A stretch of 20,318 bases of DNA from a virus. Numbering within the stretch: the stretch's first letter is position 1; the number at the start of each line of letters is the position of its first letter. Position numbers and translations under genes: made by a program. Location: the IMG/VR virus record IMGVR_UViG_3300042429_000179, positions 1-20,318 of that record; one strand, written 5' to 3'. Positions 6,823 through 18,600 of this stretch are shown here, in pieces. Under the pieces are notes generated by a model. The model was not told the origin of the DNA and made no database searches. It saw nothing but the letters and a program-made list of their open reading frames with translations.

Positions 6823-6844
6823 TGTCAGTCCCCCCTGCTATGCT
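6823..6844 (+). promoter_or_regulatory. TGTCAG-N10-TATGCT promoter
   Basis: TGTCAG (6823-6828), 10 bases, TATGCT (6839-6844) with extended -10 TGC. The predicted leader to the ATG at 6901 is about 50 bases and holds an AGCGG/CCGCT hairpin (6864-6882) and ACGAAAGGAG. Confidence 0.65.
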
Positions 6845-6900
6845 TAAGGTATAAAGAAAAACAAGCGGTAAAGAAATCCGCTAACGAAAGGAGCAATCAA

Positions 6901-7053
6901 ATGCTCACTCAAAAAACACTAGACGCAATCGTCTATGAATACCAACACGGGGGCGTGAAGTCCAACCACCCCGAATTGACTACCTATGAACGCAAGGCGT
7001 TGCTAAAGCACCTCTTTAGCCTACCGACCTATTGCGCTTGTTGTGTGAGGTAA
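6901..7053 (+). CDS. Hypothetical 50-aa protein, first gene of the rightward arm
   Basis: Begins MLTQKTLDAIVYEYQHGG and ends CACCVR, with C-x-C-C at the extreme C-terminus. A strong ribosome site (ACGAAAGGAG) lies just upstream. The stop codon is inside a near-perfect CRP-like palindrome (7044-7059), so the end of the gene doubles as regulatory DNA for the next operon. Codon use is richer in G and C than in the left arm. No family recognised. Confidence 0.65.
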   Translation: MLTQKTLDAIVYEYQHGGVKSNHPELTTYERKALLKHLFSLPTYCACCVR

Positions 7054-7059
7054 ATCACA
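7044..7059 (+). promoter_or_regulatory. CRP/GlxR-like operator
   Basis: TGTGA-GGTAAA-TCACA, a perfect consensus palindrome extended by flanking G and C residues (GTGTGA/TCACAC). Its centre is 36.5 bp before the TGTCAG box at 7088. Confidence 0.7.
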
Positions 7060-7087
7060 CACGACACTAGCCCCAAATGGGTCTAAA

Positions 7088-7109
7088 TGTCAGTAGGTCG
7101 TGATAGTCT
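7088..7109 (+). promoter_or_regulatory. TGTCAG-N10-TAGTCT promoter
   Basis: TGTCAG (7088-7093), 10 bases, TAGTCT (7104-7109), TGA extended -10. The -10 is the weakest of the set. The long leader (about 113 bases) carries the 19-base direct repeat. Confidence 0.5.
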
Positions 7110-7135
7110 TACGACATACAAATAAATAAAGAATT

Positions 7136-7189
7136 AGAGCGTGAGCCTAGCAAATAATCCGAAAGGTGAGCCTAGCAAATAATCGCTCT
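7136..7189 (+). repeat. 19-bp direct repeat inside inverted arms, in an mRNA leader
   Basis: Two exact copies of GTGAGCCTAGCAAATAATC (7141-7159 and 7166-7184), 6 bases apart. They are enclosed by AGAGCG (7136-7141) and CGCTCT (7184-7189), which can pair. Located in the 5' leader of the gene at 7229. Could be a structured regulatory leader or a repeated binding site. Confidence 0.75.
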
Positions 7190-7228
7190 CAACAAAATAA
7201 CCAACTAACGAAAAGGATAGAAAATAAA

Positions 7229-7378
7229 ATGACAATCACTTACTCACTATGGGACGGCGCACAATTCCTAGGTTTCTTTACAGCAACTAGCGCAGACGAA
7301 ATGAACAAGACAGTAACCGAACTACAAAAGGTTTCTAAAAATGTAGTAGCACACCTACGAAAGGTAGAACAGAACTAA
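7229..7378 (+). CDS. Hypothetical 49-aa protein
   Basis: Start ATG at 7229 with ACGAAAAGGA about 11 bases upstream. An in-frame GTG at 7166 lies inside the direct repeat with its ribosome site touching the codon, so it is unlikely. The sequence MTITYSLWDGAQFLGFFTA followed by a helix (ADEMNKTVTELQKVSKNVVAHL) suggests a small alpha/beta fold. TAATG overlap with the next gene. No family recognised. Confidence 0.65.
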   Translation: MTITYSLWDGAQFLGFFTATSADEMNKTVTELQKVSKNVVAHLRKVEQN

Positions 7379-7560
7379 TGTCATACGCATACTCTTACCA
7401 AACTAACTCAATAGATAAATACGCCTCTATCCAATCAGATGTCGCAGACGCATACGCTTACCTTGATGAAGTAGATGAGGAACAACCTCCACTTGATGAC
7501 TTTGATGACTCAGATGATGAACAACTAGCAAAACTATACTCACTAACTTGGGAAGGCTAA
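7378..7560 (+). CDS. Small acidic protein
   Basis: 60 residues, N-terminal Tyr-rich segment (MSYAYSYQTNSIDKYAS), then a strongly acidic region (LDDFDDSDDEQLAKLY). The start overlaps the previous stop by one base (TAATG). Acidic phage proteins of this kind may mimic DNA or bind host proteins, but nothing here identifies a target. Confidence 0.6.
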   Translation: MSYAYSYQTNSIDKYASIQSDVADAYAYLDEVDEEQPPLDDFDDSDDEQLAKLYSLTWEG

Positions 7561-7563
7561 TAA

Positions 7564-7758
7564 ATGACTATCGAACTAAATGAATACGGCTTAATGATTG
7601 ACCTAGGCGACTTCCTCTATGTATCTCTAGGGTGGGCGTTCATTATCTTGACCGCTCTAGTTATTGTCGGCGTTAAGGTATACAATAAGATAAAGAATAA
7701 GCGAGTAGCGGATACATTCGTAACCGATACAACTACTAACGATTTATGGAGTAACTAA
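7564..7758 (+). CDS. Single-pass membrane protein
   Basis: 64 residues: a short extracytoplasmic or acidic N-terminus (MTIELNEYGLMIDLGDF), a hydrophobic helix about residues 19-38 (SLGWAFIILTALVIVGVKVY), then a basic stop-transfer (NKIKNKR) and polar tail. GGAAGG lies about 9 bases upstream. One-base overlap with the next membrane gene suggests a two-protein unit. Function unknown. Confidence 0.65.
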   Translation: MTIELNEYGLMIDLGDFLYVSLGWAFIILTALVIVGVKVYNKIKNKRVADTFVTDTTTNDLWSN

Positions 7759-7883
7759 TGACTACTAATCGCATACTAACTACACTAGTCCAATTAGGTA
7801 TCGGTATCCCCGCCCTACTTATGGCTCGCCTTGTATGGCGTGAGATCGTGTCCGATTATAGGGAGTGGGCTAAATCACACTAA
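7758..7883 (+). CDS. Mini membrane protein, 41 aa
   Basis: Begins MTTNRILTTLVQLGIGIPAL and continues hydrophobic to about residue 22, then a charged tail (WREIVSDYREWAKSH). It starts within the stop of the preceding membrane gene (TAATG). Probably an inner-membrane peptide co-translated with it. No family recognised. Confidence 0.6.
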   Translation: MTTNRILTTLVQLGIGIPALLMARLVWREIVSDYREWAKSH

Positions 7884-7994
7884 CGCTACGGCGTGTCGGC
7901 TTGACAAAGTCAAGCTGGCCCGCAAAGGCACGGGGTCGGGCGTGTCGTTACGGGTACCTACTAGAACCCCTGGAATTTTGTGAGATTTATCACA
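7884..7994. repeat. Intergenic cassette, copy 1
   Basis: Contains, in order, GGCGTGTCGG (7890-7899), a perfect hairpin GCTTGAC-AAA-GTCAAGC (7899-7915), GCCCGCAAAGG (from 7918), CGGGGTCGGGCGTGTCG (to 7947), TTACGGG, AACCCCTGGAATTTT (to 7979) and a CRP-like palindrome. The same block recurs at 8893, 10164, 11411 and, degenerately, at 13296, 14600, 16885 and 19749. The GC-rich part may terminate transcription, though no T run follows. Confidence 0.75.
7979..7994 (+). promoter_or_regulatory. CRP/GlxR-like operator
   Basis: TGTGA-GATTTA-TCACA, perfect arms. Centre 47.5 bp before the TGTCGG box at 8034. Confidence 0.7.
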
Positions 7995-8026
7995 TAAAAA
8001 GATTTCTTGAAATACGGCGTGTCGTG

Positions 8027-8055
8027 TTGATAATGTCGGTGTGCTCGTGTATAAT
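8027..8055 (+). promoter_or_regulatory. TGTCGG-N10-TATAAT promoter with an additional canonical -35
   Basis: TGTCGG (8034-8039), 10 bases, TATAAT (8050-8055), extended -10 TG. This copy also has TTGATA at 8027-8032, exactly 17 bases before the -10, so it could work as an ordinary SigA promoter as well. The leader to ATG 8087 is about 25 bases and contains ACGAAAGG. Confidence 0.75.
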
Positions 8056-8086
8056 ACCATTATAACCACAACGAAAGGTCGATAAA

Positions 8087-8215
8087 ATGACACTAGATGA
8101 ATACAAGGCTTATGTAGAAGCCACACGCAAGGAAAGCCTACTAAAGGCTATCGCAACAATGTCAGAGGCTAATGATAAGATGTCCTCACTATTCAATACT
8201 AAGGAGGCAGACTAA
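8087..8215 (+). CDS. Hypothetical 42-aa helical protein
   Basis: Begins MTLDEYKAYVEATRKESLLK; a single amphipathic helix is likely across most of its length. Preceded by ACGAAAGG in the stereotyped leader of its own promoter. It is followed without a gap by the next ATG (TAAATG). Function unknown. Confidence 0.6.
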   Translation: MTLDEYKAYVEATRKESLLKAIATMSEANDKMSSLFNTKEAD

Positions 8216-8341
8216 ATGGGTTATGTAGAAATCTTTCGCATAGATAACGAGGGTGCGGGTTGGGTAGATTTATCCGAGGCAACACCAGATGAACTATTCA
8301 ACATTGAATTAGGATTACTAAATGAAGGGGCGTTTGAATAA
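8216..8341 (+). CDS. Hypothetical 41-aa acidic protein
   Basis: Begins MGYVEIFRIDNEGAGWVDLS with a Glu-rich second half. AAGGAGG lies at about 7 bases inside the end of the previous gene, giving good translation support. It ends TAATG onto the next gene. No family recognised. Confidence 0.6.
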   Translation: MGYVEIFRIDNEGAGWVDLSEATPDELFNIELGLLNEGAFE

Positions 8342-8466
8342 TGGCTAGTAATTGGACAACATTCGCAACTGTAAGAGATTACCCTAGCGGGCTAATGAAT
8401 GAATGCGTATGCGGGCAAGTAGTCCTTGCGCCAAAAACACGACACGAGAATTGCGAGAATAAATAA
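8341..8466 (+). CDS. Hypothetical 41-aa protein with possible metal site
   Basis: Begins MASNWTTFATVRDYPSGLMN, then ECVCGQVVLAPKTRHENCENK. The C-x-C-G turn plus H and C about 14 residues later resemble a minimal zinc knuckle (C-x-C ... H-x2-C). Coupled by TAATG to its upstream neighbour and followed directly by the next ATG. Function unknown. Confidence 0.6.
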   Translation: MASNWTTFATVRDYPSGLMNECVCGQVVLAPKTRHENCENK

Positions 8467-8619
8467 ATGAAAAGATACACATTCGGCGTTTGGCTAGACA
8501 TAGACGCAGAGGACGAAAATCAGGCGGTGTCTTTATTTGATAGCGTTGTGAAAAACACTTTTGTTTCAGACTCTTATTGTTTTGAATGGAAAGAGGTCGC
8601 AGATGAAATCGCAATTTGA
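8467..8619 (+). CDS. Hypothetical 50-aa protein
   Basis: Begins MKRYTFGVWLDIDAEDENQA. The pattern of a beta strand, an acidic loop (DAEDENQAVSLFDSVV) and a second strand suggests a small ferredoxin-like half-fold such as those that handle aldehyde or DNA-mimic functions in phages, but no family is recognised. It begins immediately after the previous stop and overlaps the next gene by 17 bases. Confidence 0.55.
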   Translation: MKRYTFGVWLDIDAEDENQAVSLFDSVVKNTFVSDSYCFEWKEVADEIAI

Positions 8620-8797
8620 AAAAGATTTAGAAATAAAAGAAAGTTTTATTGATTTACTAAATGATGTTTATCCAACTGTAAAAATTGGTTATTCAACTTT
8701 TACTCCCGCCGAGATTTTGGAATGTTGCGACCCTGTTGCTTTTTCTATCGGACTAATTGAACACGAGGACTATCTAGCAGAAATGGAAAACGAATGA
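8603..8797 (+). CDS. Hypothetical 64-aa protein
   Basis: ATG at 8603 with AGAGG about 8 bases upstream, inside the end of the previous gene. Sequence MKSQFEKDLEIKESFIDLLN followed by a segment with ECCDPVAF; mostly helical and acidic. The pattern of a hydrophobic core with a GLIEHEDYLAEM tail occurs in actinophage hypotheticals, but I do not recognise a named family. Overlaps the next gene by 4 bases. Confidence 0.6.
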   Translation: MKSQFEKDLEIKESFIDLLNDVYPTVKIGYSTFTPAEILECCDPVAFSIGLIEHEDYLAEMENE

Positions 8798-8892
8798 GCG
8801 ATTTATTTGGATTTGAAAAAGCAATTCAGCTCGATCATCTTACCGATAAACAAATAAACGAATTAGAAGAAATTCTAAAAGATTATCAATAG
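8794..8892 (+). CDS. Hypothetical 32-aa peptide
   Basis: ATGA overlap with the previous stop. Sequence MSDLFGFEKAIQLDHLTDKQ plus a short acidic helix ending KDYQ. Translational coupling and position at the end of the operon support it; length makes it uncertain. It ends just before intergenic cassette copy 2. Confidence 0.45.
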   Translation: MSDLFGFEKAIQLDHLTDKQINELEEILKDYQ

Positions 8893-9041
8893 ATAGCGGC
8901 GTGTCGCCTTGACAAAAGGTGATCCGCCCGCAAAAGCACGGGGTCGGGCGTGTCGTTATGAAAGAGTTATAAAACCCCTGGAATTTTACGGCGTGTCGAT
9001 TTGACAGACAAAACGGACATATCTATGTGATTAGTATCACA
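8893..9041. repeat. Intergenic cassette, copy 2
   Basis: Same order as copy 1: GGCGTGTCG (from 8899) followed by CCTTGACA, GCCCGCAAAAGCACGGGGTCGGGCGTGTCG (split from 8925 to 8955), AACCCCTGGAATTTT, then another GGCGTGTCG with TTGACA at 9001-9006, and the CRP-like palindrome at 9026. Confidence 0.75.
9026..9041 (+). promoter_or_regulatory. CRP/GlxR-like operator
   Basis: TGTGA-TTAGTA-TCACA, perfect arms. Centre 56.5 bp before the TGTCAG box at 9090. Confidence 0.7.
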
Positions 9042-9089
9042 CCGCTTGAGCGTCTCAATATTTGGAATTACTGGCTAGTAATGTGAAAA

Positions 9090-9111
9090 TGTCAGCCCTA
9101 TCCGCTATAAT
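9090..9111 (+). promoter_or_regulatory. TGTCAG-N10-TATAAT promoter
   Basis: TGTCAG (9090-9095), 10 bases, perfect TATAAT (9106-9111). Leader about 25 bases with ACGAAAGG. A palindrome ATTACT-GGCT-AGTAAT (9066-9081) lies just upstream. Confidence 0.75.
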
Positions 9112-9142
9112 TGCGGTATAACCAAACGAAAGGTGACAACTT

Positions 9143-9343
9143 ATGTCAGCAAATGTCTATTCCGTAGCAAACCTACTTGTAGGAAAAATGTATTACTCTC
9201 GCTCAGTATCGGGCGAAATTATTGACGCAGAAAAAACCGATAAGGTCTGGTATGCGGATTGCGATAGTTATCGAATTCAGGTAAGAGCGCAAAACACTTT
9301 CAGAGATACTTATCGCTATGTAGCCGTAAAGGTAGGTGAATAA
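9143..9343 (+). CDS. Hypothetical 66-aa protein
   Basis: Begins MSANVYSVANLLVGKMYYSR; alternates strands and loops (GEIIDAEKTDKVWYADCDSYRIQVRAQ), suggesting a small beta-barrel. ACGAAAGG lies about 10 bases before the ATG. First gene of an operon of six. Function unknown. Confidence 0.65.
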   Translation: MSANVYSVANLLVGKMYYSRSVSGEIIDAEKTDKVWYADCDSYRIQVRAQNTFRDTYRYVAVKVGE

Positions 9344-9514
9344 ATGTTAGATACAAAATACATTGACGAAACCGAATTCTATTTCATAAAAGATGAAATA
9401 AAATTTCATTGTGACGAAAGCCAATTTGTTTATGTGTGTAAAGCACACGGCGAGCAAATGGGTTGCTACTATTGCGAATTTAACTATGATGAGAATTGCG
9501 AGTGTGAAGGATAA
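9344..9514 (+). CDS. Cys-rich, zinc-binding-like 56-aa protein
   Basis: Begins MLDTKYIDETEFYFIKDEIK, then cysteines at 23, 32, 41, 44, 52 and 54, with H22 and H35 nearby (FHC, VCKAHG, CYYC, NCEC). This is enough for one or two zinc sites. Start immediately follows the previous stop (TAAATG) and it is coupled to the next gene by TAATG. Function unknown. Confidence 0.65.
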   Translation: MLDTKYIDETEFYFIKDEIKFHCDESQFVYVCKAHGEQMGCYYCEFNYDENCECEG

Positions 9515-9651
9515 TGATAAACTCAGTAATGCGTATAGATTGCTCAGATTGTAATTCAACTGGACTAATCTTTTTTGGAGATAACAATAATTTTGATGTC
9601 GAAACTTGCGATTGCGATTTCGGCAAAGAGCAAGACTCATTTTTTAACTAA
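9514..9651 (+). CDS. Zinc-ribbon-like 45-aa protein
   Basis: Begins MINSVMRIDCSDCNSTGLIF and later ETCDCDFG: C10-x2-C13 and C32-x-C34, reminiscent of a DnaJ-type or rubredoxin knuckle with the CNSTG turn. One-base overlap (TAATG) with the preceding Cys-rich gene, so the two may act together. Its last codons overlap the ACGAAAGGG site of the next gene. No named family. Confidence 0.65.
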   Translation: MINSVMRIDCSDCNSTGLIFFGDNNNFDVETCDCDFGKEQDSFFN

Positions 9652-9665
9652 CGAAAGGGAAACTA

Positions 9666-9869
9666 ATGTATAAAATAACTCTAGCCTATGACGGAAATGC
9701 GCCACATTGGCAAGGCGATTACTATGATGAAATGGAAGCGTGGTCAGCGTTTTTCAAATTCACCGATTGGGGATTTGCTGATGAATTCTCAACTGTAAAT
9801 ATTTACACTCCCGAATTGAAATGCTATACAAAAAACTTTTATCGTAGCGGAATGGTGGTAGCAAAATGA
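9666..9869 (+). CDS. Hypothetical 67-aa protein
   Basis: Begins MYKITLAYDGNAPHWQGDYY, followed by a helix (DEMEAWSAFFKFTDWGFADE) and strands. ACGAAAGGG is 9 bases before the ATG even though no TGTCAG promoter precedes it, showing that this motif belongs to translation rather than transcription. Small alpha/beta fold likely. Function unknown. Confidence 0.65.
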   Translation: MYKITLAYDGNAPHWQGDYYDEMEAWSAFFKFTDWGFADEFSTVNIYTPELKCYTKNFYRSGMVVAK

Positions 9870-10057
9870 TGACACGCAAAGACTATGTAGCAACCGCAGA
9901 AATTCTAAAGTATGCTAGCGATAAAACTCACCCCGCTTTATTTTCTAAAATCGTAAATGATTTCGCTGAAATGTTTGCGAAAGATAATGAGCGATTTGAT
10001 GTAAAACGATTTCACGAAGCGAGCAATTACAATGTTCCTAAATTCACTTCAAGATAA
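9866..10057 (+). CDS. Hypothetical 63-aa protein
   Basis: Begins MMTRKDYVATAEILKYASDK and is followed by a helix ending NDFAEMFAKDNERFDVKRFH. This pattern (RKDYVATAEIL ... FA.MFA.DNPRFD..RF) is a common hypothetical protein of actinophages and plasmids, without known function. ATGA-type overlap of 4 bases with the previous gene; translation could start at either of the two adjacent ATGs. Confidence 0.7.
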   Translation: MMTRKDYVATAEILKYASDKTHPALFSKIVNDFAEMFAKDNERFDVKRFHEASNYNVPKFTSR

Positions 10058-10163
10058 AGTAAAACGCATTCAGGAATTGCGCCGCAGTAATGCGGCGCAA
10101 CCTGTTCGCAATAAAAAAAAATACACACGCAAAATAAAACATAAAAATAAATTCGATCAATAG
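10032..10163 (+). CDS. Small basic protein, 43 aa
   Basis: Begins MFLNSLQDKVKRIQELRRSN and ends in a Lys/Arg-rich tail (KKKYTRKIKHKNK), so it probably binds nucleic acid. It overlaps the previous gene by 26 bases; the ribosome site is weak. A perfect 10-bp hairpin with a GTAA loop (10077-10100) lies within it. Coding status is plausible but not secure. Confidence 0.45.
   Translation: MFLNSLQDKVKRIQELRRSNAAQPVRNKKKYTRKIKHKNKFDQ
10077..10100 (+). other. Perfect hairpin with GNRA-type loop
   Basis: TTGCGCCGCA pairs exactly with TGCGGCGCAA around GTAA. An A-rich stretch follows, not a T run, so it is not a standard terminator. It could stabilise or process the mRNA 3' end, or slow ribosomes in the overlapping small gene. 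Confidence 0.7.
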
Positions 10164-10240
10164 CCCACAGCTCGGCCCGCAAAGGTACGGGGTCGGGCGT
10201 GTCGTTAAGACTGTGATCTAAAACACCCTGGAAAATTGGG
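10164..10240. repeat. Intergenic cassette, copy 3
   Basis: GCCCGCAAAGGTACGGGGTCGGGCGTGTCG (split across 10174-10204), TTAAGACTG, then the CCCTGGAAAATT block (10226-10238). It lacks the leading GTGTCG/TTGACA part. Here the CRP-like half-site precedes the CCCTGG block rather than following it. Confidence 0.65.
10212..10227 (+). promoter_or_regulatory. Degenerate CRP-like operator
   Basis: TGTGA-TCTAAA-ACACC: one perfect arm, 3 of 5 in the other. Centre 35.5 bp before the TGTCAG box at 10255. Confidence 0.4.
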
Positions 10241-10254
10241 CGTGGCGTGGAAAA

Positions 10255-10276
10255 TGTCAGTCTAATCTGCTATAAT
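10255..10276 (+). promoter_or_regulatory. TGTCAG-N10-TATAAT promoter
   Basis: TGTCAG (10255-10260), 10 bases ending TGC, perfect TATAAT (10271-10276). Leader of about 24 bases with ACGAAAGAGG. Confidence 0.75.
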
Positions 10277-10306
10277 TCCAATATCTACCAACGAAAGAGG
10301 TCCATT

Positions 10307-10516
10307 ATGGAACTATTTACAGTATCTTGCTTGAACTATGAAATTTGTGGCGCTCAAGAAACTTTTGACAATGATTCAGAATATGAAATTTATGGCGATG
10401 ATTATATCTGCGCTGAATGCTATGCGTCTGAGGAAATGGAATTCTTTGAAACTATTGGCTGGGCTGATTCTGATGCTCTTGCTTCCGCTGGATTTGGAAT
10501 GGATGAGGATTACTAA
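10307..10516 (+). CDS. Acidic zinc-binding-like protein, 69 aa
   Basis: Start ATG 10307, after ACGAAAGAGG at about 7 bases. Sequence MELFTVSCLNYEICGAQETF, then YICAECYASEEMEFFE: C8 and C14 with C36-x2-C39 can form one zinc ribbon, followed by an acidic C-terminus. The pattern 'C..CG ... YICAEC' resembles small actinophage zinc ribbons. Ends two bases before the next TGTCAG promoter. Function unknown. Confidence 0.65.
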   Translation: MELFTVSCLNYEICGAQETFDNDSEYEIYGDDYICAECYASEEMEFFETIGWADSDALASAGFGMDEDY

Positions 10517-10518
10517 TA

Positions 10519-10540
10519 TGTCAGACCCAACCGCTATAAT
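10519..10540 (+). promoter_or_regulatory. TGTCAG-N10-TATAAT promoter placed for a leaderless mRNA
   Basis: TGTCAG (10519-10524), 10 bases, perfect TATAAT (10535-10540), then 7 bases to ATG 10548, which is where transcription should begin. No CRP-like site is present; the box starts 3 bases after the upstream stop codon. Confidence 0.75.
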
Positions 10541-10547
10541 TACCCCT

Positions 10548-11267
10548 ATGAAACTGAAACGCTCTAACGATAGAAAGGTGGCTAACCTTGTCACAAAAAA
10601 TGGAAAGCAAGCGGCAATTGCTAACACTTTCGGATTACCTGCTGGAAAAGCTTACTCGTGCCCTGGTGCCACTAGTATTTGTGAAAGCGTTTGCTACGCA
10701 GGAAAACTCGAAAAGTTATTCCCTGGAGTAAAAACTAATCTGCTACACAATTGGGAATTGCTACGCAATGCCGATATGGATACAATGCTTATTCTATTAG
10801 ATGAGATGATTGTAGAATTTATCGCCGATTGTGAAAAGAAAGACGCTCCTAAGTTATTCCGTATCCACTGGGACGGGGACTTCTTCAATGATACTTACGC
10901 ATATGCCTGGAAAGTAATCATTACTAACCACCCCGATGTTCAATTCTGGGTTTACACTCGTGTAAAGTCTGCAGCGCTTATTCTTAAGGATGTCTCTAAT
11001 TTATCTCTTTACTATTCCACCGATGATGAGAATAAAGAAATAGCATTCGATTTGAAAACTAATTCTAAGGTCCGCCTTGCTTATCTAGGGAAGACATTCG
11101 CTTCAACCGAAGACACGATGAAAGAATTGACTGGCAAGCCTGGCGCTAAGTGCCCTGAGAATATGAAAAGTATTCCGCTTATCTCTAGCAATGGGTCCGC
11201 CTGCGTTTCTTGTGGCCTATGTGTTTACGGTAAAGCAGATATTAGATTTTCTGCGAGTAAAAAATAA
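10548..11267 (+). CDS. Gp88-like actinophage protein with Cys clusters
   Basis: 239 residues from ATG 10548. It resembles the actinophage Gene product 88 family. Seen: FGLPAGKAYSCPGATSICES with C38, C45 and C49, then RIHWDGDFFNDTYAYAW near 105, FWVYTRV near 133 and a C-terminal C202, C219-x2-C222-x2-C225. Seven cysteines in two groups suggest a metal (perhaps iron-sulfur) centre; biochemical function is unknown. The start is chosen because the promoter TATAAT ends 7 bases before this ATG. An in-frame ATG at 10518 would place the promoter inside the gene, and a degenerate ACGATAGAAAGG lies after the ATG. Coupled by TAATG to a mini membrane gene. Confidence 0.75.
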   Translation: MKLKRSNDRKVANLVTKNGKQAAIANTFGLPAGKAYSCPGATSICESVCYAGKLEKLFPGVKTNLLHNWELLRNADMDTMLILLDEMIVEFIADCEKKDAPKLFRIHWDGDFFNDTYAYAWKVIITNHPDVQFWVYTRVKSAALILKDVSNLSLYYSTDDENKEIAFDLKTNSKVRLAYLGKTFASTEDTMKELTGKPGAKCPENMKSIPLISSNGSACVSCGLCVYGKADIRFSASKK

Positions 11268-11410
11268 TGTATGACTTTATCGGATCCATTCTTGGAATTG
11301 GATTAATTGCATTCTTGTGCTCACCAATTGTGCTAGCCGTGTACATGTGGAATGGCGCAAAATTTGATGATGATAATGACGGAATAGAAGATTTGCCTAA
11401 TCGTTGGTAA
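11267..11410 (+). CDS. Mini membrane protein, 47 aa
   Basis: Begins MYDFIGSILGIGLIAFLCSP and continues hydrophobic to about residue 27, then a short acidic tail (KFDDDNDGIEDLPNRW). It starts within the stop of the Gp88-like gene. The small-membrane-plus-acidic-tail layout repeats that of 4291-4440. Function unknown. Confidence 0.6.
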   Translation: MYDFIGSILGIGLIAFLCSPIVLAVYMWNGAKFDDDNDGIEDLPNRW

Positions 11411-11459
11411 CGGCGTGTCGGCTTGACAAAGTCAAGCTGGCCCGCAATGTTGTGGGGGG

Positions 11460-11489
11460 TTATCCACAGGCTTACGAGAGTTATCCACA
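11460..11489 (+). promoter_or_regulatory. Two direct DnaA boxes
   Basis: Perfect TTATCCACA at 11460-11468 and again at 11481-11489, 21 bp apart start to start (two helical turns), separated by GGCTTACGAGAG. Possible replication origin element or host DnaA binding/titration site. Confidence 0.65.
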
Positions 11490-11500
11490 ACCCCTAGAAT

Positions 11501-11516
11501 TGTGAGTATTATCACA
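11501..11516 (+). promoter_or_regulatory. CRP/GlxR-like operator
   Basis: TGTGA-GTATTA-TCACA, perfect arms. Centre 41.5 bp before the TGTCAG box at 11550, half a turn out of phase with most copies. Confidence 0.65.
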
Positions 11517-11549
11517 AAAGCTGCGACACGCCCATAATGGATTAGGTAA

Positions 11550-11571
11550 TGTCAGTGGCAAATGCTATAAT
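11550..11571 (+). promoter_or_regulatory. TGTCAG-N10-TATAAT promoter
   Basis: TGTCAG (11550-11555), 10 bases ending TGC, perfect TATAAT (11566-11571). Leader of about 22 bases with CAACGAAAGG. Confidence 0.75.
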
Positions 11572-11599
11572 ACTCTTATCCAACAACGAAAGGTAACAA

Positions 11600-11806
11600 A
11601 TGACACCAGTAGAACACTCACTCAAATTCGTAACCGAGTTTGACGAAACACATCCTATCGCAAAACAATTCTTACAATTAGATGAACAATCACAAATTGC
11701 TATGCTAGAGTCAATGCTAAAAGATTTATTGGTATCTGCTATCCAACCAGTAATTGACCACATCAACGAAAACGGCTCATACGCAATTCTAAAGGTGGCT
11801 AACTAA
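11600..11806 (+). CDS. Hypothetical 68-aa helical protein
   Basis: Begins MTPVEHSLKFVTEFDETHPI, then helices (AMLESMLKDLLVSAIQPVIDHI). Soluble and acidic. CAACGAAAGG is 7 bases before the ATG. Coupled to the next gene by TAATG. No family recognised. Confidence 0.65.
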   Translation: MTPVEHSLKFVTEFDETHPIAKQFLQLDEQSQIAMLESMLKDLLVSAIQPVIDHINENGSYAILKVAN

Positions 11807-12069
11807 TGGGATACACAACAGCGCTAGATTTATCAGACTTAGGATTAGAGCAAGGTATCTCTATTCACTTACAAGGTAATCACTACCCACCCGTTCCACT
11901 TTCTATGGTGAAGCCGTGTATCGATGCTATCGATGCTTGGTGGGATGAGGATTCAGATAGGTTGATCGAAATGCCTGAAGGCGTATCTTATCGAGGAGAT
12001 AAGTTTGCCCCCGCCCACGCAATAATTGACCAACACCACTTACACGCTTGGCTACAAGAAAGTGATTAG
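11806..12069 (+). CDS. Hypothetical 87-aa protein
   Basis: Begins MGYTTALDLSDLGLEQGISI; contains a Trp-rich, acidic middle (DAIDAWWDEDSDRL) and a His-rich C-terminus (AIIDQHHLHAWLQESD) that might bind metal. Its stop codon lies inside a CRP-like palindrome, as in the gene at 6901. Function unknown. Confidence 0.65.
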   Translation: MGYTTALDLSDLGLEQGISIHLQGNHYPPVPLSMVKPCIDAIDAWWDEDSDRLIEMPEGVSYRGDKFAPAHAIIDQHHLHAWLQESD

Positions 12070-12114: not shown

Positions 12115-12136
12115 TGTCAGACCCCAATGCTACAAT
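12115..12136 (+). promoter_or_regulatory. TGTCAG-N10-TACAAT promoter
   Basis: TGTCAG (12115-12120), 10 bases ending TGC, TACAAT (12131-12136). Leader about 21 bases with a variant ribosome motif AAAGAAAAGAGG. Confidence 0.7.
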
Positions 12137-12453: not shown

Positions 12454-12475
12454 TGTCAGACCCCCCTGCTATACT
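12454..12475 (+). promoter_or_regulatory. TGTCAG-N10-TATACT promoter
   Basis: TGTCAG (12454-12459), 10 bases ending TGC, TATACT (12470-12475). No CRP-like palindrome upstream, unlike other intergenic copies. Leader about 29 bases with CAACGAAAGG. Confidence 0.7.
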
Positions 12476-13359: not shown

Positions 13360-13367
13360 TGAAAGTT

Positions 13368-13383
13368 TGTGATAATGATCACA
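13368..13383 (+). promoter_or_regulatory. CRP/GlxR-like operator
   Basis: TGTGA-TAATGA-TCACA, perfect arms. Centre 46.5 bp before the TGTCAG box at 13422. Confidence 0.7.
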
Positions 13384-13421
13384 CCGCACAATTAGGACAA
13401 ATGACTATCTAATCTAGACAA

Positions 13422-13443
13422 TGTCAGTGGGGTCTGTTATACT
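13422..13443 (+). promoter_or_regulatory. TGTCAG-N10-TATACT promoter
   Basis: TGTCAG (13422-13427), 10 bases, TATACT (13438-13443), extended TGT. TAGACA at 13415-13420 is also 17 bases before the -10, so a canonical -35 overlaps. Leader about 23 bases with AAACGAAAGG. Confidence 0.75.
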
Positions 13444-13472
13444 TACAACTAATCAAACGAAAGGAAATAAAA

Positions 13473-14477: not shown

Positions 14478-14490
14478 ATAAATAAAATCC

Positions 14491-14522
14491 TGAGCAAGAT
14501 TTAAAACTGCTCACAATTTTTT
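14491..14522 (+). terminator. Intrinsic terminator after the DUF932-like gene
   Basis: TGAGCA (14491-14496) pairs with TGCTCA (14508-14513), then CAA and six T residues. It ends only 3 bases before tRNA-Asp, so the tRNA must rely on read-through or on a promoter not seen. Confidence 0.7.
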
Positions 14523-14525
14523 CTT

Positions 14526-14599
14526 GGTCTGTTAGCTCAGTTGGTTAGAGCGCTACCCTGTCACGGTAGAGGTCGACGGTTCAAGTCCGTTACAGATCG
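14526..14599 (+). tRNA. tRNA-Asp (anticodon GUC)
   Basis: 74-base cloverleaf: acceptor GGTCTGT/ACAGATC with discriminator G, D arm with AGCTCAGTTGGTTAGAGCG, anticodon arm CTACC/GGTAG around CTGTCAC (anticodon GTC at 14560-14562), T arm GACGG-TTCAAGT-CCGTT. No encoded CCA. Sits directly behind a terminator hairpin. Confidence 0.95.
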
Positions 14600-14675
14600 C
14601 AAAGCGCCCGCAATATTAAGGGGAAAAAAAGTGTGTTACGTCTCACATAAAAAAAACCCTGAAATCTATTGCGGA
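14600..14675. repeat. Intergenic cassette, copy 6 (reduced)
   Basis: GCGCCCGCAATATTAAGGGG follows the tRNA, then a CRP-like palindrome, then AAACCCTGAAATC. The palindrome precedes the CCCTGAAA block here. It lacks GTGTCG. Confidence 0.55.
14632..14647 (+). promoter_or_regulatory. CRP/GlxR-like operator
   Basis: TGTGT-TACGTC-TCACA, one mismatch. Centre 36.5 bp before the TGTCAG box at 14676. Confidence 0.55.
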
Positions 14676-14697
14676 TGTCAGTGGCGTCGTGTACAAT
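14676..14697 (+). promoter_or_regulatory. TGTCAG-N10-TACAAT promoter
   Basis: TGTCAG (14676-14681), 10 bases, TACAAT (14692-14697), extended TG. Leader about 23 bases with CAACGAAAGAGG. Confidence 0.75.
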
Positions 14698-14726
14698 ACT
14701 CCTATACAACAACGAAAGAGGTAAAT

Positions 14727-15155
14727 ATGTCATATGAACGGACGAAGGGCTATACAGGAAATGTCCTGGATGGCAAGAAGCTTGCTAAGATTGCAAATGA
14801 TATTTATCGTGCACAATATAGCAATGACTTTAGCGAATGCACGGTTGATAACTTATTACTAATTGAATTAGAAGAGAAGAATGTATTTGGGGATCCTAAG
14901 TATGCGGTCCTATGCTCTGAAGGTGTTGGCTGGGAACAAGATGAATATGGTTGCCTAGAAATACCTACAAACATTGGGCAGATGGGTCTATGGAATGGAA
15001 GAGTCTTTATCTCAGTAGAGACTGTTAAGTCTTGTCAGACTATCTTTAAAGAAGATGTATCAAATTACATTAGGACCTTTGGCTCCCGCCTTGATTCTAA
15101 CTGCTCCCTATGGCAGTCCAAAATGTCAGTGGAACCTGTTACAATACTCGGATGA
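14727..15155 (+). CDS. Hypothetical 142-aa protein
   Basis: Start ATG 14727, after CAACGAAAGAGG; upstream in-frame codons run through tRNA-Asp and are not coding. Begins MSYERTKGYTGNVLDGKKLA, with a helix (KIANDIYRAQY) and several cysteines but no clear zinc motif. The last codons, encoding MSVEPVTILG, contain the next TGTCAG promoter, so the protein C-terminus is constrained by regulatory DNA. Overlaps the next start by 4 bases. Function unknown. Confidence 0.7.
   Translation: MSYERTKGYTGNVLDGKKLAKIANDIYRAQYSNDFSECTVDNLLLIELEEKNVFGDPKYAVLCSEGVGWEQDEYGCLEIPTNIGQMGLWNGRVFISVETVKSCQTIFKEDVSNYIRTFGSRLDSNCSLWQSKMSVEPVTILG
15124..15145 (+). promoter_or_regulatory. TGTCAG-N10-TACAAT promoter inside a gene end; leaderless
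   Basis: TGTCAG (15124-15129), 10 bases, TACAAT (15140-15145), then 6 bases to ATG 15152, the expected start of transcription. No ribosome site precedes that ATG. No CRP-like site. Confidence 0.7.
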
Positions 15156-15805
15156 GCACAGACCTAGTATCAACCAAGTATACATTTGCCTGCGACCCAG
15201 ATGAATGTGATTGTTTAATCGAACTAACATCATCTGACGGATTTGGATTCCCGTCGGGTGTGATGCAAATCACTTGCCCGTGTGGCCGTAAGCCAGTCTT
15301 ATTGTCAGCGGTCACTGCTACAATTGCTCCAACAAACCAAACGAAAGAGGAAACAATGGAACCAACTACAACACCAATCCCTGAGTCATATAACTCTAAT
15401 CTATTGGTAACCTACAAAGTAATCCGTGGCTATTCAGATGCAGAATATGCAACTGATAAAGTTACATCTATTGAGTGGGACTTACACAATGGACGCCAAG
15501 CACAAAAGCAAGCAAATCTTTATTTGTCTAAGATTGACACAGTTAAAGATATTATCACTGAAGCATATGCCGATTCAGATGACCAAGAAACACTTCGTTC
15601 AATTGCTGAAGCGCTTGACATTCCATTGACACGAACAGTTGAGTGGTCTGCATCTGTTGAGGTTAGCGGAACCATTGAATTAGATTTGCTTTCTGATTAT
15701 GACACTGACATTGAGTCAGAGATTACAGATGCTCTTTATGTTGAAGCACAGAACGGCAACATTGAAATTGTTGACCAAGAAGTATGTAATGTGCGTGAGA
15801 ACTAA
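15152..15805 (+). CDS. Zinc-ribbon plus C-terminal domain protein with a nested in-frame start
   Basis: 217 residues from ATG 15152. Residues about 12-50 form a zinc-ribbon-like part (FACDPDECDCLIE ... QITCPCGRKPVLL). Residues 51-68 (SAVTATIAPTNQTKEET) are encoded by a complete TGTCAG promoter plus ACGAAAGAGG. ATG 15356 then begins a 149-residue product with acidic, strand-rich sequence (SVEVSGTIELDLLSDYDTDI). Two proteins sharing a C-terminus are therefore expected. The long form may instead represent an accidental fusion of two genes by loss of a stop. The upstream start would be leaderless. Function unknown for both parts. Confidence 0.65.
   Translation: MSTDLVSTKYTFACDPDECDCLIELTSSDGFGFPSGVMQITCPCGRKPVLLSAVTATIAPTNQTKEETMEPTTTPIPESYNSNLLVTYKVIRGYSDAEYATDKVTSIEWDLHNGRQAQKQANLYLSKIDTVKDIITEAYADSDDQETLRSIAEALDIPLTRTVEWSASVEVSGTIELDLLSDYDTDIESEITDALYVEAQNGNIEIVDQEVCNVREN
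15303..15324 (+). promoter_or_regulatory. TGTCAG-N10-TACAAT promoter internal to a reading frame
   Basis: TGTCAG (15303-15308), 10 bases ending TGC, TACAAT (15319-15324). Followed by AAACGAAAGAGG and ATG 15356 with the usual leader layout, although the frame is open throughout. Confidence 0.7.
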
Positions 15806-16008
15806 TGTACTTTGAGTTGACCGCTCCCGATAGGCTATCTCTTGAGATGGCTTATTGGGATGCACAAATCACAGGGCTCGACCCTGAATTTATGCCGCCA
15901 TTGACATTCAACATTGGAACTGGTAGTATTGAGAAAGTTAGTCGCATTCGTGATAAGTATAATTTAAAAGAATCGTACTGGTCAGAAAAAGAATCGACAG
16001 GATACTAG
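15805..16008 (+). CDS. Hypothetical 67-aa protein
   Basis: Begins MYFELTAPDRLSLEMAYWDA, continuing through an FNIGTGSIEKVSRIRDKYNL segment. The start overlaps the previous stop (TAATG). Predicted soluble alpha/beta. No family recognised. Confidence 0.65.
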   Translation: MYFELTAPDRLSLEMAYWDAQITGLDPEFMPPLTFNIGTGSIEKVSRIRDKYNLKESYWSEKESTGY

Positions 16009-16016
16009 GAGATAAA

Positions 16017-16163
16017 ATGTCAGATTATAAAGATGGATTTCAAGACGGGTACAAGTTTGCTCGTGAAGAACTAATGGAAAAGTTGTCAGAGATTGACATC
16101 GCTGACATTGACTCTTGGATCCTTGACCGTCTTTCAGAAATGATTGAGGGTGGCAACCTGTGA
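16017..16163 (+). CDS. Hypothetical 48-aa acidic helical protein
   Basis: Begins MSDYKDGFQDGYKFAREELM; the DGFxDGYKFARE segment is a recurrent motif in small phage proteins, followed by an acidic helical tail. AGGAG is 5 bases before the ATG. Although it opens with ATGTCAG, no -10 lies 10 bases on, so this is not a promoter copy. Overlaps the next gene by one base (TGATG). Confidence 0.65.
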   Translation: MSDYKDGFQDGYKFAREELMEKLSEIDIADIDSWILDRLSEMIEGGNL

Positions 16164-16345
16164 TGGCTGAATGGCTTAAGTGTGATCAGTGTGCAGCTCA
16201 GGCAATGTGGGAAGCAAAGAAAGACACGATGTCTCTTTATTTTTGTGGACATCATAAGAATGAACAAGGCGAGCCCCTTGTGGACTGGGCCGAAGAAATG
16301 GTACAATTACTCAACTACGAGCAACAACTAACAAAGGCGGAATAA
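16163..16345 (+). CDS. DUF7455-like zinc-ribbon protein
   Basis: 60 residues from ATG 16163 (a GTG one codon earlier is less likely). KCDQCAAQAMWEAKK then LYFCGHHKNE: C7-x2-C10 and C28-x-H30-H31, matching the small actinophage/actinobacterial zinc-ribbon family in which a CDRCGAQA...FCGHH pattern is typical. The C-terminus is an acidic helix. Overlaps the previous stop. Likely binds zinc; role unknown. Confidence 0.75.
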   Translation: MAEWLKCDQCAAQAMWEAKKDTMSLYFCGHHKNEQGEPLVDWAEEMVQLLNYEQQLTKAE

Positions 16346-16346
16346 A

Positions 16347-16715
16347 ATGGGCGACAGAGCAAACTTTGGTTTCAGAGATTCCAAGGAAAATATTGTATTT
16401 CTATATGGACACTGGGCAGGGCACCGTATGCTAGAGAATTTAGCGGACGCCGTGCAGATTGCACATCCACGTTGGAATGACGAGGCATATGCAACACGTA
16501 TTGCTATCAGTCAAATGATTGGTGATGAATGGCCTAGCGAAACAGGCTGGGGCATTAGCGTTAATGAATTGGCCGACAATGAGCACAAGGTCCCTATTAT
16601 TGATTGGAAGAATAAAACATTTACATTAATGGAAGAGGACCTGCAGACTGTAGTATTTAGCACAAGCCTTGAGGCATTCGTCGCTAAGTATTGTAGTCAA
16701 CTAAGTATGGTATAA
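16347..16715 (+). CDS. Conserved actinophage-type hypothetical protein, 122 aa
   Basis: Begins MGDRANFGFRDSKENIVFLY followed by GHWAGHRMLENLADAVQIAH and ATRIAISQMIGDEW. I recognise this as a widespread hypothetical family in actinophages (MGDRANFGF ... LYGHWAG), with no assigned function. AAGGCGG lies about 8 bases upstream. Its stop codon lies in an extended -10 element that may start a non-coding RNA. Confidence 0.75.
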   Translation: MGDRANFGFRDSKENIVFLYGHWAGHRMLENLADAVQIAHPRWNDEAYATRIAISQMIGDEWPSETGWGISVNELADNEHKVPIIDWKNKTFTLMEEDLQTVVFSTSLEAFVAKYCSQLSMV

Positions 16716-16716
16716 T
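16708..16716 (+). promoter_or_regulatory. Extended -10 promoter of a candidate non-coding RNA
   Basis: TGG then perfect TATAAT (16711-16716), overlapping the upstream stop codon. Predicted start near 16723. No TGTCAG or strong -35 seen. Confidence 0.45.
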
Positions 16717-16722
16717 TAATCT

Positions 16723-16883
16723 AGGACCTTGGTCCTGGTTTTAATACAGAAATGAAATGGTGCGTCTAACTAGTCTACGGGCCAGGCGCTAAGTAAAGCG
16801 GTTTATTTCTTTCGTTGGAAATCAGCAGCCATATTCATTACCCCCTAGTCAGCTTCAACTCTGAGCCTAGGGGGAATTTTTTT
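16723..16883 (+). ncRNA. Candidate non-coding RNA, about 160 nt
   Basis: Runs from the predicted start of the extended -10 promoter to a strong terminator with no reading frame between. It opens with an AGGACC/GGTCCT hairpin (16723-16736) and contains GCGCTAAG and AAAGCGG segments. No match to a known riboswitch or tmRNA that I can see. It is the only gene-free stretch of over 300 bases in the rightward arm. Confidence 0.5.
16841..16883 (+). terminator. Strong intrinsic terminator
   Basis: CCCCCTAG (16841-16848) pairs with CTAGGGGG (16867-16874); AA and seven T residues follow. Inner CAG/CTG pairing extends the stem. Confidence 0.85.
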
Positions 16884-16884
16884 G

Positions 16885-16961
16885 CCCGCAAGGGCGAGGG
16901 TAACATATCTCTTTTACGAGGTCAATAGCAAAACTCCTGAAAATTTGTGATCTTGACCACA
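16885..16961. repeat. Intergenic cassette, copy 7
   Basis: GCCC-GCAA-GGGC hairpin with a GNRA loop (16885-16896), GAGGGTAAC, TTTTACGAG, AACTCCTGAAAATT, and the CRP-like site. Confidence 0.6.
16946..16961 (+). promoter_or_regulatory. CRP-like operator, distal
   Basis: TGTGA-TCTTGA-CCACA, one mismatch. Centre 53.5 bp before the TGTCAG box at 17007. Confidence 0.5.
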
Positions 16962-16972
16962 AAGCTGAATAA

Positions 16973-16988
16973 TGTGGGGTGTATCACA
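16973..16988 (+). promoter_or_regulatory. CRP-like operator, proximal
   Basis: TGTGG-GGTGTA-TCACA, one mismatch, also containing GGTGT-ATC-ACACC. Centre 26.5 bp before the TGTCAG box at 17007. Confidence 0.45.
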
Positions 16989-17006
16989 CCCAAAATCTAT
17001 TCCAAA

Positions 17007-17028
17007 TGTCAGTGGTCCATTGTATAAT
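17007..17028 (+). promoter_or_regulatory. TGTCAG-N10-TATAAT promoter
   Basis: TGTCAG (17007-17012), 10 bases, perfect TATAAT (17023-17028), extended TG. Leader about 21 bases with CAACGAAAGG. Confidence 0.75.
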
Positions 17029-17055
17029 TGGAACATATCAACGAAAGGATATAAA

Positions 17056-17847
17056 ATGCCAAATTGGTGTTATAACACATTAACTATCCAAGGACCTAAG
17101 TCTGAGGTAGATATGATTAAAGATAGATTGAATGCTCCATTTACATTAGCAATGGAGAATCACGGTATGGGTGATATCTCTTCTATGGGTTTCCCCACCA
17201 AAATTAAACAGGTTGAATATAATAATCCTGTGTTTGCTTTTCATAACATCCACTCATATAAAGATGACGGCATTACTGATGAAGAATATGCTTGCCAACC
17301 TAATCGTGGAGATATAGATATTCAGAATGACCCTGATTGGTTCCGCAAATCTATTGAGTTTGCTAAGACTCAAAAGGATTGGTATTCGTGGAACAATTCT
17401 AATTGGGGAACCAAGTGGGATGTTGCAGTATCAGATGATGAGAAGTATTCTAATACAGAACTACTTGAATATAAATCAGAAGGTGATGACAACTGGCTTG
17501 TCTATAAATATGAAACTGCTTGGTCACCTGCTGTAACTATCTTAACTAAACTAAGTAATCTTGTTCCTAACTGCCTGCTTACATTAGAGTTTGAGGAAGA
17601 GACAGGCTGGGGTGGGGAATATGAGATTGTTCGTGGTGAAGTAAAAGAACTATTGGCATATGAGAACCGTTGCTATGCTTGCCAGTCTTTTGATTGTATT
17701 GACTATTGCGAGAATGACTGCGGTGAATTCTGCTCAGAATGCAATGAGGGCTCTTGGCAGGATGAGGTGGCTATGAAAGAATGTCAGACCCATATGGTAT
17801 TATTACCTTTGAAAACCTACACACAGGAAGAGGCACTAAATGTCTAG
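17056..17847 (+). CDS. DUF1281/Api92-like ferredoxin-fold protein with C-terminal Cys cluster
   Basis: 263 residues from ATG 17056 (upstream in-frame codons cross the promoter). MPNWCYNTLTIQGPKSEV is the hallmark start of the DUF1281/Api92-like family of phage and plasmid proteins with a ferredoxin-like fold. TAWSPAVTILTKLSN near 155 and EEETGWGGEYE near 185 also fit. Residues about 205-235 add a Cys cluster (CYACQSFDCIDYC ... CGEFCSEC) with eight cysteines, enough for two zinc sites. The last codons contain a TGTCAG promoter. CAACGAAAGG about 8 bases before the ATG. Molecular function unknown. Confidence 0.8.
   Translation: MPNWCYNTLTIQGPKSEVDMIKDRLNAPFTLAMENHGMGDISSMGFPTKIKQVEYNNPVFAFHNIHSYKDDGITDEEYACQPNRGDIDIQNDPDWFRKSIEFAKTQKDWYSWNNSNWGTKWDVAVSDDEKYSNTELLEYKSEGDDNWLVYKYETAWSPAVTILTKLSNLVPNCLLTLEFEEETGWGGEYEIVRGEVKELLAYENRCYACQSFDCIDYCENDCGEFCSECNEGSWQDEVAMKECQTHMVLLPLKTYTQEEALNV
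17782..17803 (+). promoter_or_regulatory. TGTCAG-N10-TATTAT promoter inside a gene end
   Basis: TGTCAG (17782-17787), 10 bases ending TGG, TATTAT (17798-17803). It lies in the last codons of the DUF1281-like gene and would give a leader of about 30 bases to ATG 17840 with GGAAGAGG. Confidence 0.6.
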
Positions 17848-18076
17848 TTTCTTAGAAAATGAAAATGAAATGTTGATTGACGCAATCTTCTCTGAAATTG
17901 GAGAACAACTCGTTGAAGATTGGATGAACTCTAATTTAGATGAAGGGCAACTATATGCCGATTGGTGTGTTGCCGATATGTCTAACAGCAATTATCTAAA
18001 AGGCAGGTTCAATCAGTTTCACAATTTAAGTCCAACAGATAATTACTACCTACAATGGGATGAGAACGCAGAATGA
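17840..18076 (+). CDS. Hypothetical 78-aa acidic protein
   Basis: Begins MSSFLENENEMLIDAIFSEI and continues GEQLVEDWMNSNLDEG; strongly acidic and helical. GGAAGAGG lies about 7 bases before the ATG. Overlaps its neighbour on each side (8 and 4 bases). No family recognised. Confidence 0.65.
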   Translation: MSSFLENENEMLIDAIFSEIGEQLVEDWMNSNLDEGQLYADWCVADMSNSNYLKGRFNQFHNLSPTDNYYLQWDENAE

Positions 18077-18243
18077 CATACTATAACTTCGTAATTAAAT
18101 TACACGGTGCCGTTGGTGCTAATAGCGAAGAAGAAGCAATTGAAAAAATCAATGGACATCTTGATGACCTTGGTCAAGTAGAAAGTATTATTAAGTATGA
18201 CTTAGGTTGGCCTGAGACATCTTGGGAATTGGAGGAACAGTAA
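18073..18243 (+). CDS. Hypothetical 56-aa protein
   Basis: Begins MTYYNFVIKLHGAVGANSEE, then a helix EEAIEKINGHL and strand QVESIIKYDLG. The beta-alpha-beta layout with NSEEEAIEKI resembles a small ferredoxin-like domain. ATGA overlap with the previous gene, TAATG with the next. Confidence 0.6.
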   Translation: MTYYNFVIKLHGAVGANSEEEAIEKINGHLDDLGQVESIIKYDLGWPETSWELEEQ

Positions 18244-18425
18244 TGCTAGGTTATACTGAATCCGATCTAAATAGAATGATTAATGCTATACACGATTCAA
18301 AGCTTTTCTATCTTAGGACCCCGTCCGATTTAATGGACAAGGAGCCTTTGAGGAAAGACTTGGAAGACGCTGTTAGTTTCTTGCAAGGTTTGTGGGCGGA
18401 GGGTTACTTTGACCACACAGACTAA
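18243..18425 (+). CDS. Hypothetical 60-aa helical protein
   Basis: Start ATG 18243 with TTGGAGGAA about 8 bases upstream. Begins MLGYTESDLNRMINAIHDSK and ends DAVSFLQGLWAEGYFDHTD. Two amphipathic helices around a basic loop are likely. No family recognised. Confidence 0.65.
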   Translation: MLGYTESDLNRMINAIHDSKLFYLRTPSDLMDKEPLRKDLEDAVSFLQGLWAEGYFDHTD

Positions 18426-18600
18426 ATCATCATACTTCTTGGAGTATATGAAGTTACATCTAATTAGTCTTAACCAGGACTTAGAGGGTGATTATAATGT
18501 TCAATCTAAGATTAATATCCAGGGACAAATTATGGCAACCGAGCATTTATTGTCAGTGGCAACTGATATAATGAATAACTCTAACGAAAGGTATGAATAA
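18409..18600 (+). CDS. Hypothetical 63-aa protein, TTG start
   Basis: The TTG at 18409 is preferred because GGAGGG (18398-18403) lies 5 bases upstream; the next ATG (18448) has GGAG only 3 bases away. Sequence MTTQTKSSYFLEYMKLHLIS continues as a helical bundle. Its last third contains the TGTCAG promoter for the next gene (codons for LLSVATDIMNNSNERYE). Overlaps the previous gene by 17 bases. Confidence 0.6.
   Translation: MTTQTKSSYFLEYMKLHLISLNQDLEGDYNVQSKINIQGQIMATEHLLSVATDIMNNSNERYE
18551..18572 (+). promoter_or_regulatory. TGTCAG-N10-TATAAT promoter inside a gene end
   Basis: TGTCAG (18551-18556), 10 bases ending TGA, perfect TATAAT (18567-18572). Followed by CTAACGAAAGG and ATG 18600. 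Entirely within the preceding coding region; no CRP-like site. Confidence 0.7.

Follow-up and report, generated by a model that had tools for sequence, protein, structure and literature searches.

The 20,318-base virus record IMGVR_UViG_3300042429_000179 (the window, analysed over its whole length) carries a row of promoters in which the box TGTCRG stands exactly ten bases ahead of a -10 hexamer of the form TANNNT. Comparison of the motif with published consensus sequences indicates that this array very probably comprises about 17 phage copies of the PafBC-dependent promoter of Actinobacteria (the RecA-NDp, or recA P1, type). The best reading appears to be that one phage clade has put a gene block under a host activator triggered by single-stranded DNA (ssDNA), without a LexA operator.

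The promoter array

The form TGTCRG-N10-TANNNT occurs 18 times in the window, always on the plus strand, compared with a mean of 0.34 and a maximum of 4 in 100 dinucleotide shuffles. A preliminary description of this DNA had listed 16 boxes on the plus strand at exactly N10, and all were confirmed (15 TGTCAG and one TGTCGG, at 8034). The scan added two more on the same strand, at 8160 (well kept in relatives) and 7665 (weakly kept). Behind the box, hexamers that match TATAAT with no more than one mismatch number 15 at N10, none at every other spacing from 4 to 20, and three at N21. The minus strand has at most one such hexamer at any spacing. The family would have lost its meaning if the motif were equally frequent at N8-N12 or on the opposite strand; N10 on the plus strand dominates both in the window and in its relatives. 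Outside the 18 promoter sites, TGTCRG occurs nine times on the plus and five times on the minus strand, the chance level for a hexamer.

A canonical -35 element is mostly absent, as had been described. The best TTGACA match at spacers of 15-19 has a mean of 2.6 mismatches at array sites versus 3.0 at random places, and a one-mismatch -35 is present only at 8034 and 13422 (2 of 18 promoters). The extended -10 said to be usual is found in most sites and not in all: TGn precedes 11 of the 16 hexamers first listed (12 of all 18), and the remaining five have either TG directly adjoining the hexamer (three) or CGC (two). Similarly, a start codon follows soon downstream of the other sites listed as preceding gene starts, and the site at 15124 departs from this pattern. 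Its -10 starts at 15140 and the first ATG in the frame of the long open reading frame (ORF) lies at 15152, six bases past the -10; judged from these positions, the gene would have a leaderless mRNA. The promoter at 15303 sits within this same ORF, ahead of an inner start.

Conservation in related phages

Relatives were taken as the best 80 loci from a search with the GP88-family protein; these loci overlap or are near-copies, and the counts from them are not independent. In these loci, TGTCAG-N10 followed by TATAAT (one mismatch allowed) occurs 873 times on the array strand and never on the opposite one, which bears out the family as specific to strand and spacing in the scan of related phages that the preliminary description had proposed. 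Other spacings on the plus strand give 0-27 each from 4 to 20, and 101, 55 and 16 at N21, N22 and N23. A query without the box recovered 2035 distinct -10 sites, with TGTCAG at exactly this offset in 479 and TGTCGG in 49; the next hexamer reached 20. At 16 of the 18 promoters, 95% or more of the orthologous places retain the box (exceptions: 10519, 62/69, and 7665, 8/14). Spacers have often diverged where the box is retained; at 9090, for example, spacer identity is 0.43 and the box is present in 91/91.

The same geometry is found in 14 long contigs (71.7-116 kb), which have 10-22 TGTCAG-N10-TANNNT sites on one strand and 0 or 1 on the other (reversed control: 0-2 per strand). Among the matches listed, nearly all cluster within a single block (about 8.5-13 kb), with few strays. 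In one contig (G013) some sites were counted twice owing to exact end repeats of 3269 bases that lie inside the array; a terminal repeat and a circular assembly fit these equally. Both ends of another (G003; 114887-115479 and 1-118) carry short tandem repeats of about 57 bases.

The profile built from 223 non-redundant phage promoters, conditioned on the box and the -10, has A/T-rich sequence ahead of TGTCRG and C/G at positions 7-8; a TG precedes the -10, which reads TATAAT, and a -35 signal is lacking. These features bear on whether the box is mainly a repressor operator, like a stoperator, lying over extended -10 promoters and shutting the array off late or in the lysogen. The stoperators of mycobacteriophage L5 contain TGTCAAG, and the boxes overlap the footprint of RNA polymerase (RNAP), both in favour of this reading. 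We consider this very improbable, given that the box is fixed at N10 without a -35 signal in the 223 promoters, that TGTCRG outside promoters is at chance level, and that no tyrosine integrase was identified in 21 phage records (which may be incomplete; serine integrases were not sought). Because of the latter result, a lytic life is more likely.

The array promoters and two promoters of a contrasting form are given below, with the number of orthologous places at which box and TANNNT are kept. Places were counted only if below 97% identity, and some contigs enter twice as overlapping loci.

6823..6844, plus: predicted PafBC-type promoter, TGTCAG-N10-TATGCT; kept 78/80
7088..7109, plus: predicted PafBC-type promoter, TGTCAG-N10-TAGTCT; kept 26/26
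7665..7686, plus: candidate promoter within an ORF, TGTCGG-N10-TACAAT, newly found; weakly kept, 7/14
8034..8055, plus: predicted PafBC-type promoter, TGTCGG-N10-TATAAT, also a one-mismatch -35; kept 50/50
8160..8181, plus: predicted PafBC-type promoter, TGTCAG-N10-TAAGAT, newly found; kept 37/38
9090..9111, plus: predicted PafBC-type promoter, TGTCAG-N10-TATAAT; kept 91/91, spacer identity only 0.43
10255..10276, plus: predicted PafBC-type promoter, TGTCAG-N10-TATAAT; kept 104/104
10519..10540, plus: predicted PafBC-type promoter before the GP88-family gene, TGTCAG-N10-TATAAT; kept 62/69
11550..11571, plus: predicted PafBC-type promoter, TGTCAG-N10-TATAAT; kept 147/147
12115..12136, plus: predicted PafBC-type promoter, TGTCAG-N10-TACAAT; kept 132/136
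12454..12475, plus: predicted PafBC-type promoter, TGTCAG-N10-TATACT; kept 98/100
13422..13443, plus: predicted PafBC-type promoter before the DUF932 gene, TGTCAG-N10-TATACT, also a one-mismatch -35; kept 148/149
14676..14697, plus: predicted PafBC-type promoter, TGTCAG-N10-TACAAT; kept 36/36
15124..15145, plus: predicted PafBC-type promoter, TGTCAG-N10-TACAAT, ATG at 15152; kept 21/22
15303..15324, plus: predicted PafBC-type promoter, TGTCAG-N10-TACAAT; kept 91/94, spacer identity only 0.45
17007..17028, plus: predicted PafBC-type promoter before a gene with an Api92-like (DUF1281_C) domain, TGTCAG-N10-TATAAT; kept 109/109
17782..17803, plus: predicted PafBC-type promoter, TGTCAG-N10-TATTAT; kept 44/51 (box alone 51/51)
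18551..18572, plus: predicted PafBC-type promoter, TGTCAG-N10-TATAAT; kept 92/92
6609..6636, minus: contrast promoter TTGACA-N16-TATACT, pointing toward the leftward genes from the gap that adjoins the array on its left; same form and following letters in 14/80 relatives
20038..20066, plus: contrast promoter TTGACC-N17-TACAAT before the ORF at 20092, beyond the array end

Identity of the motif

The consensus of the LexA/RecA-independent DNA-damage promoter (RecA-NDp) is given as tTGTCRgtg - 8 nt - TannnT (PMC5656591). The PafBC consensus is described as closely similar, and the promoter type as extending to other Actinobacteria (PMC8223512). PafB is reported to bind the -26 motif and PafC to bind domain 4 of SigA, with ssDNA as the activating agent (PMC11804915). 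The array sites carry TGTCRG, ten bases (gt(g) plus 8 nt in the consensus) and TANNNT. As this is both the spacing and the degeneracy of the RecA-NDp consensus, the phage promoters are read as PafBC-type. If the -10 hexamer is numbered -12 to -7, the box of the phage promoters occupies -28 to -23. RecA-NDp promoters do not need a sigma-A -35, and the array lacks a -35 signal, with a one-mismatch -35 at the two promoters named above.

The resemblance to the RecA-NDp and recA P1 promoters (the PafBC regulon of Mycobacterium and other Actinobacteria) extends to bases outside the search pattern. C/G occupies position 7 in 89% of host and 91% of phage sites and position 8 in 99% and 93%; G at position 14 reaches 75% and 81%, respectively. 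The host profile comprises 91 distinct spellings of LexA-coupled host sites (at least one further spelling, that of G067, is not included) and the phage profile the 223 promoters above. The array differs from RecA-NDp promoters in its location on a phage, with about 17 copies in a row over 12 kb before genes mostly without known function. Compared with the host PafBC-type sites found here, the phage -10 is nearer TATAAT. Furthermore, the window has no LexA-like box (GAAC-N4-6-GTTC), unlike the host recA site with its adjoining LexA-like operator, and CGAAC-N4-GTTC was found close to just 2 of 1098 phage sites. Among the titles and abstract openings listed from an open-licence library, none described promoters like these on a phage. 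A reading of CYGACA as an inverted -35 or WhiA-like motif was dropped after the published consensus matched.

The preliminary description had compared the array to the middle promoters of phage T4. The likeness in geometry stands: in the MotA/AsiA system, too, the -35 is replaced by an activator box that lies ahead of a good and often extended -10, and sigma domain 4 is redirected. The MotA box is centred near -30. The array has TGTCRG at about -28 to -23 instead, and this motif belongs to an activator known from actinobacteria, PafBC. The two systems would also differ in that the proposed activator of the array is host-encoded and ssDNA-triggered. A MotA-like reading was rejected as resting on geometry.

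PafBC genes and promoters in likely hosts

Freshwater acI actinobacteria are the probable hosts. An acI 16S probe recovered seventeen stretches, and nine acI genomes were taken on. A side-by-side pair of WYL proteins, like pafB-pafC, is encoded in eight of the nine (the ninth is a 0.9 Mb record), the assignment of the phages to such hosts being indirect. The pair from LanE-43 matches solved chains with E-values of 2e-35 (7p5x_AY and 9fnd_X; also 6sj9, PafBC) and 5e-29 (7p5x_AX, PafC), and the segment RMFERDK is identical. Two of these chains, 7p5x_AY and 9fnd_X, are named only as transcriptional regulator-like, partner of PafC. The promoter form is also present on the host side: TGTCRG-N10-TANNNT together with a LexA-like box was identified in 97 of 151 genomes of the acI family (reversed control: 0 of 151). 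In both loci that were translated, LanE-43 (among the 151) and BS11 (not among them), recA sequence lies within about 200 bases downstream of the site. Some acI-family genomes have two sites of the PafBC-type with a LexA box, of which only the recA-type ones were identified.

The preliminary description had inferred a dedicated activator, alternative sigma use or a special RNAP contact, and had considered the array a regulon. The sites do look like an activator-type class, with an upstream box replacing the -35 before one gene set on one strand, and these phage genes are better seen as joined to a host regulon. A phage-encoded activator or sigma factor is not supported, as the motif is that of PafBC and the likely hosts have the genes. 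It seems unlikely that a phage protein, MotA-like in function, reads the same -26 box and makes host PafBC unnecessary. The confinement of the array almost wholly to one block and one strand would suit such a protein, the function of many phage genes is not known, and a WhiB-type regulator is encoded in 12 of the 14 long contigs. However, a search at E 0.01 found no WYL match in 25 phage records, whiB is described as a general mark of actinophages (PMC10202952), and in the three contigs checked it lies outside the array on the opposite strand. Sigma region 4 has matches in 10 of 14 records, but none of the 14 reaches the cut-off and the frames concerned are 47-62 aa long (no search with region 2 or other sigma models was made). 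Moreover, spacer features outside the search pattern recur in the host sites, and the TATAAT-like -10 of the array speaks against an alternative or phage sigma factor. Phage regulators were sought with WYL, WhiB and sigma region 4 only, and no MotA search was made. WhiB and the short helix-turn-helix frames do occur in the phages, but nothing tied them to the box and they were rejected as array regulators. A TTGACA-TATAAT promoter lies some 250-370 bases upstream of the phage whiB frame in three contigs (G003, 44025; G011, 90935; G013, 20202; all on the minus strand).

Distribution of the array

The Jay2Jay DUF932 protein matched 77 loci. Of these, 33 have 5-20 TGTCRG-N10-TANNNT sites on the plus strand and none on the minus strand, and all 33 have a G+C content of 0.35-0.40. 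One further locus (L364) has three sites beside TTGACA promoters, and the other 43 have 0 or 1 on the plus strand. In a tree of 65 distinct DUF932 proteins (midpoint-rooted, with some long branches), the 34 array-bearing rows form one clade with a support of 100/100, and L364 falls outside it. Since the array-bearing rows form one clade, the array appears to be an old trait of that clade.

Two contigs outside the clade have just three TGTCAG-N10 sites and many TTGACA promoters: G036, which includes L364 (sites at 4097, 4331 and 6285), and G032, the contig of L374, with sites on both strands (19055 and 20888, minus; 21032, plus). These could represent either an intermediate state or a separate gain. 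A scan of the collection with TGTCAG-N6-TG-N-TATAAT returned at least 80 loci with one strict match each, and among the matches listed only L151 has more than one looser site. This 41.8 kb phage contig has five TGTCRG-N10 sites on its minus strand, with -10 hexamers such as TAGAGT, TATAGT and TAGTGT.

Ten named actinophages encode DUF932 (10 of 600 records matched); they have 0-3 matches each and no array. Streptomyces phages of the BE1 group (Stanwilliamsviridae, e.g., Jay2Jay) share with the window the order nrdJ, transglycosylase, then a small-gene block with DUF932. They are reported to have direct terminal repeats of about 11 kb (PMC5764925), and the DUF932 gene of Jay2Jay is present at both genome ends. 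Unlike the window, the matching block of Jay2Jay has, by eye, promoters with TTGnnn and TAGACT-like -10 hexamers, and the whole record has no excess of TGTCRG-N10-TANNNT (2 versus 5 for the reversed control). Outside the array, promoters are not well defined: TTGACN-N16-18-TANNNT occurs 30, 26 and 27 times in three long phage contigs versus a Markov expectation of about 19 (standard deviation about 4), only a modest excess.

Proposed activation and points against it

Upon infection, the host PafBC heterodimer, loaded with ssDNA, would join the host RNAP-sigma-A holoenzyme halted at a phage promoter. The helix-turn-helix of PafB would read the -26 box TGTCRG and PafC would hold domain 4 of sigma-A, making a -35 dispensable; sigma-A could then open the TANNNT -10, and transcription would begin without a -35. 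The ssDNA may come from resection of incoming linear DNA, from phage replication or from breakdown of host DNA, all of which are possible. The block is probably expressed early, because it is syntenic with the terminal repeat of the BE phages. A broader proposal, which we regard as evenly balanced, is that the clade rewired the block, in place of its relatives' terminal-repeat genes, onto the host ssDNA sensor, with PafBC switching on about 17 promoters at once. The array would be silent or low until entry, resection or replication of phage DNA yields ssDNA, so that the damage alarm of the host would serve as an infection timer. With so many sites, the array may in addition divert PafBC and RNAP from host repair genes.

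Several observations weigh against PafBC control. Start sites and PafBC dependence are predictions from sequence, and ClgR recognises the same promoter according to work cited in PMC5656591. Some array promoters may fire without PafBC, because their -10 hexamers are strong and TGn is present in 12 of 18. In its full form, this would make them plain extended -10 sigma-A promoters at which TGTCRG contacts the core of host RNAP and no activator takes part. That we consider extremely improbable, since the array agrees with a published activator-dependent motif, and the conserved host sites are not general but coupled to LexA-like boxes, in two cases at recA. The form is also rare in the nine acI genomes: without the LexA box, the loose form gives 96 matches versus 71 in the reversed control. 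This lack of a clear signal also counts against the PafBC reading, as does the single match to the strict TGTCAG-N10-TATAAT in these genomes; with the looser -10, strict-form scarcity was no longer taken as evidence against a host origin. It is the LexA-coupled sites that carry the host case, and they are missing from, or not covered in, 54 of the 151 genomes. Along most of its length, the phage tRNA-Asp shares 81-82% identity with tRNAs of the acI family (86% across 56 bases); this does not settle the host, and the tRNA was discarded as a host marker. Finally, some low-count relatives with a G+C content of 44-48% have, by eye, neither the array nor a TTGACA set, and a distant low-G+C relative (L397, 39%) has no site.

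Phages bring their own sigma factors and activators or use plain host promoters. Here, a whole phage gene block has apparently been placed under an ssDNA-sensing host stress activator by promoter changes alone. If PafBC does control the array, this would explain how phages that infect abundant freshwater bacteria may time gene expression with no regulator of their own. It would also predict that pafBC mutants resist or slow these phages, and would link the programme of these phages to UV-induced damage in surface water. The many natural variants of the -26 motif would then be available for structural work on sigma adaptation.

Other features of the window

A stretch at 5770-6426 has matches to 2OG-Fe(II) oxygenase families and one at 3069-3908 a CDGSH-type stretch at its end, all below cut-offs. 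Also present are two near-identical copies, at 7871-7945 and 11393-11467, around TGTCGGCTTGACAAAGTCAAGCTGGCCCGC, with an inner CTTGAC/GTCAAG inverted repeat. The core of this stretch occurs in one or two copies in 15 of the 80 relatives.

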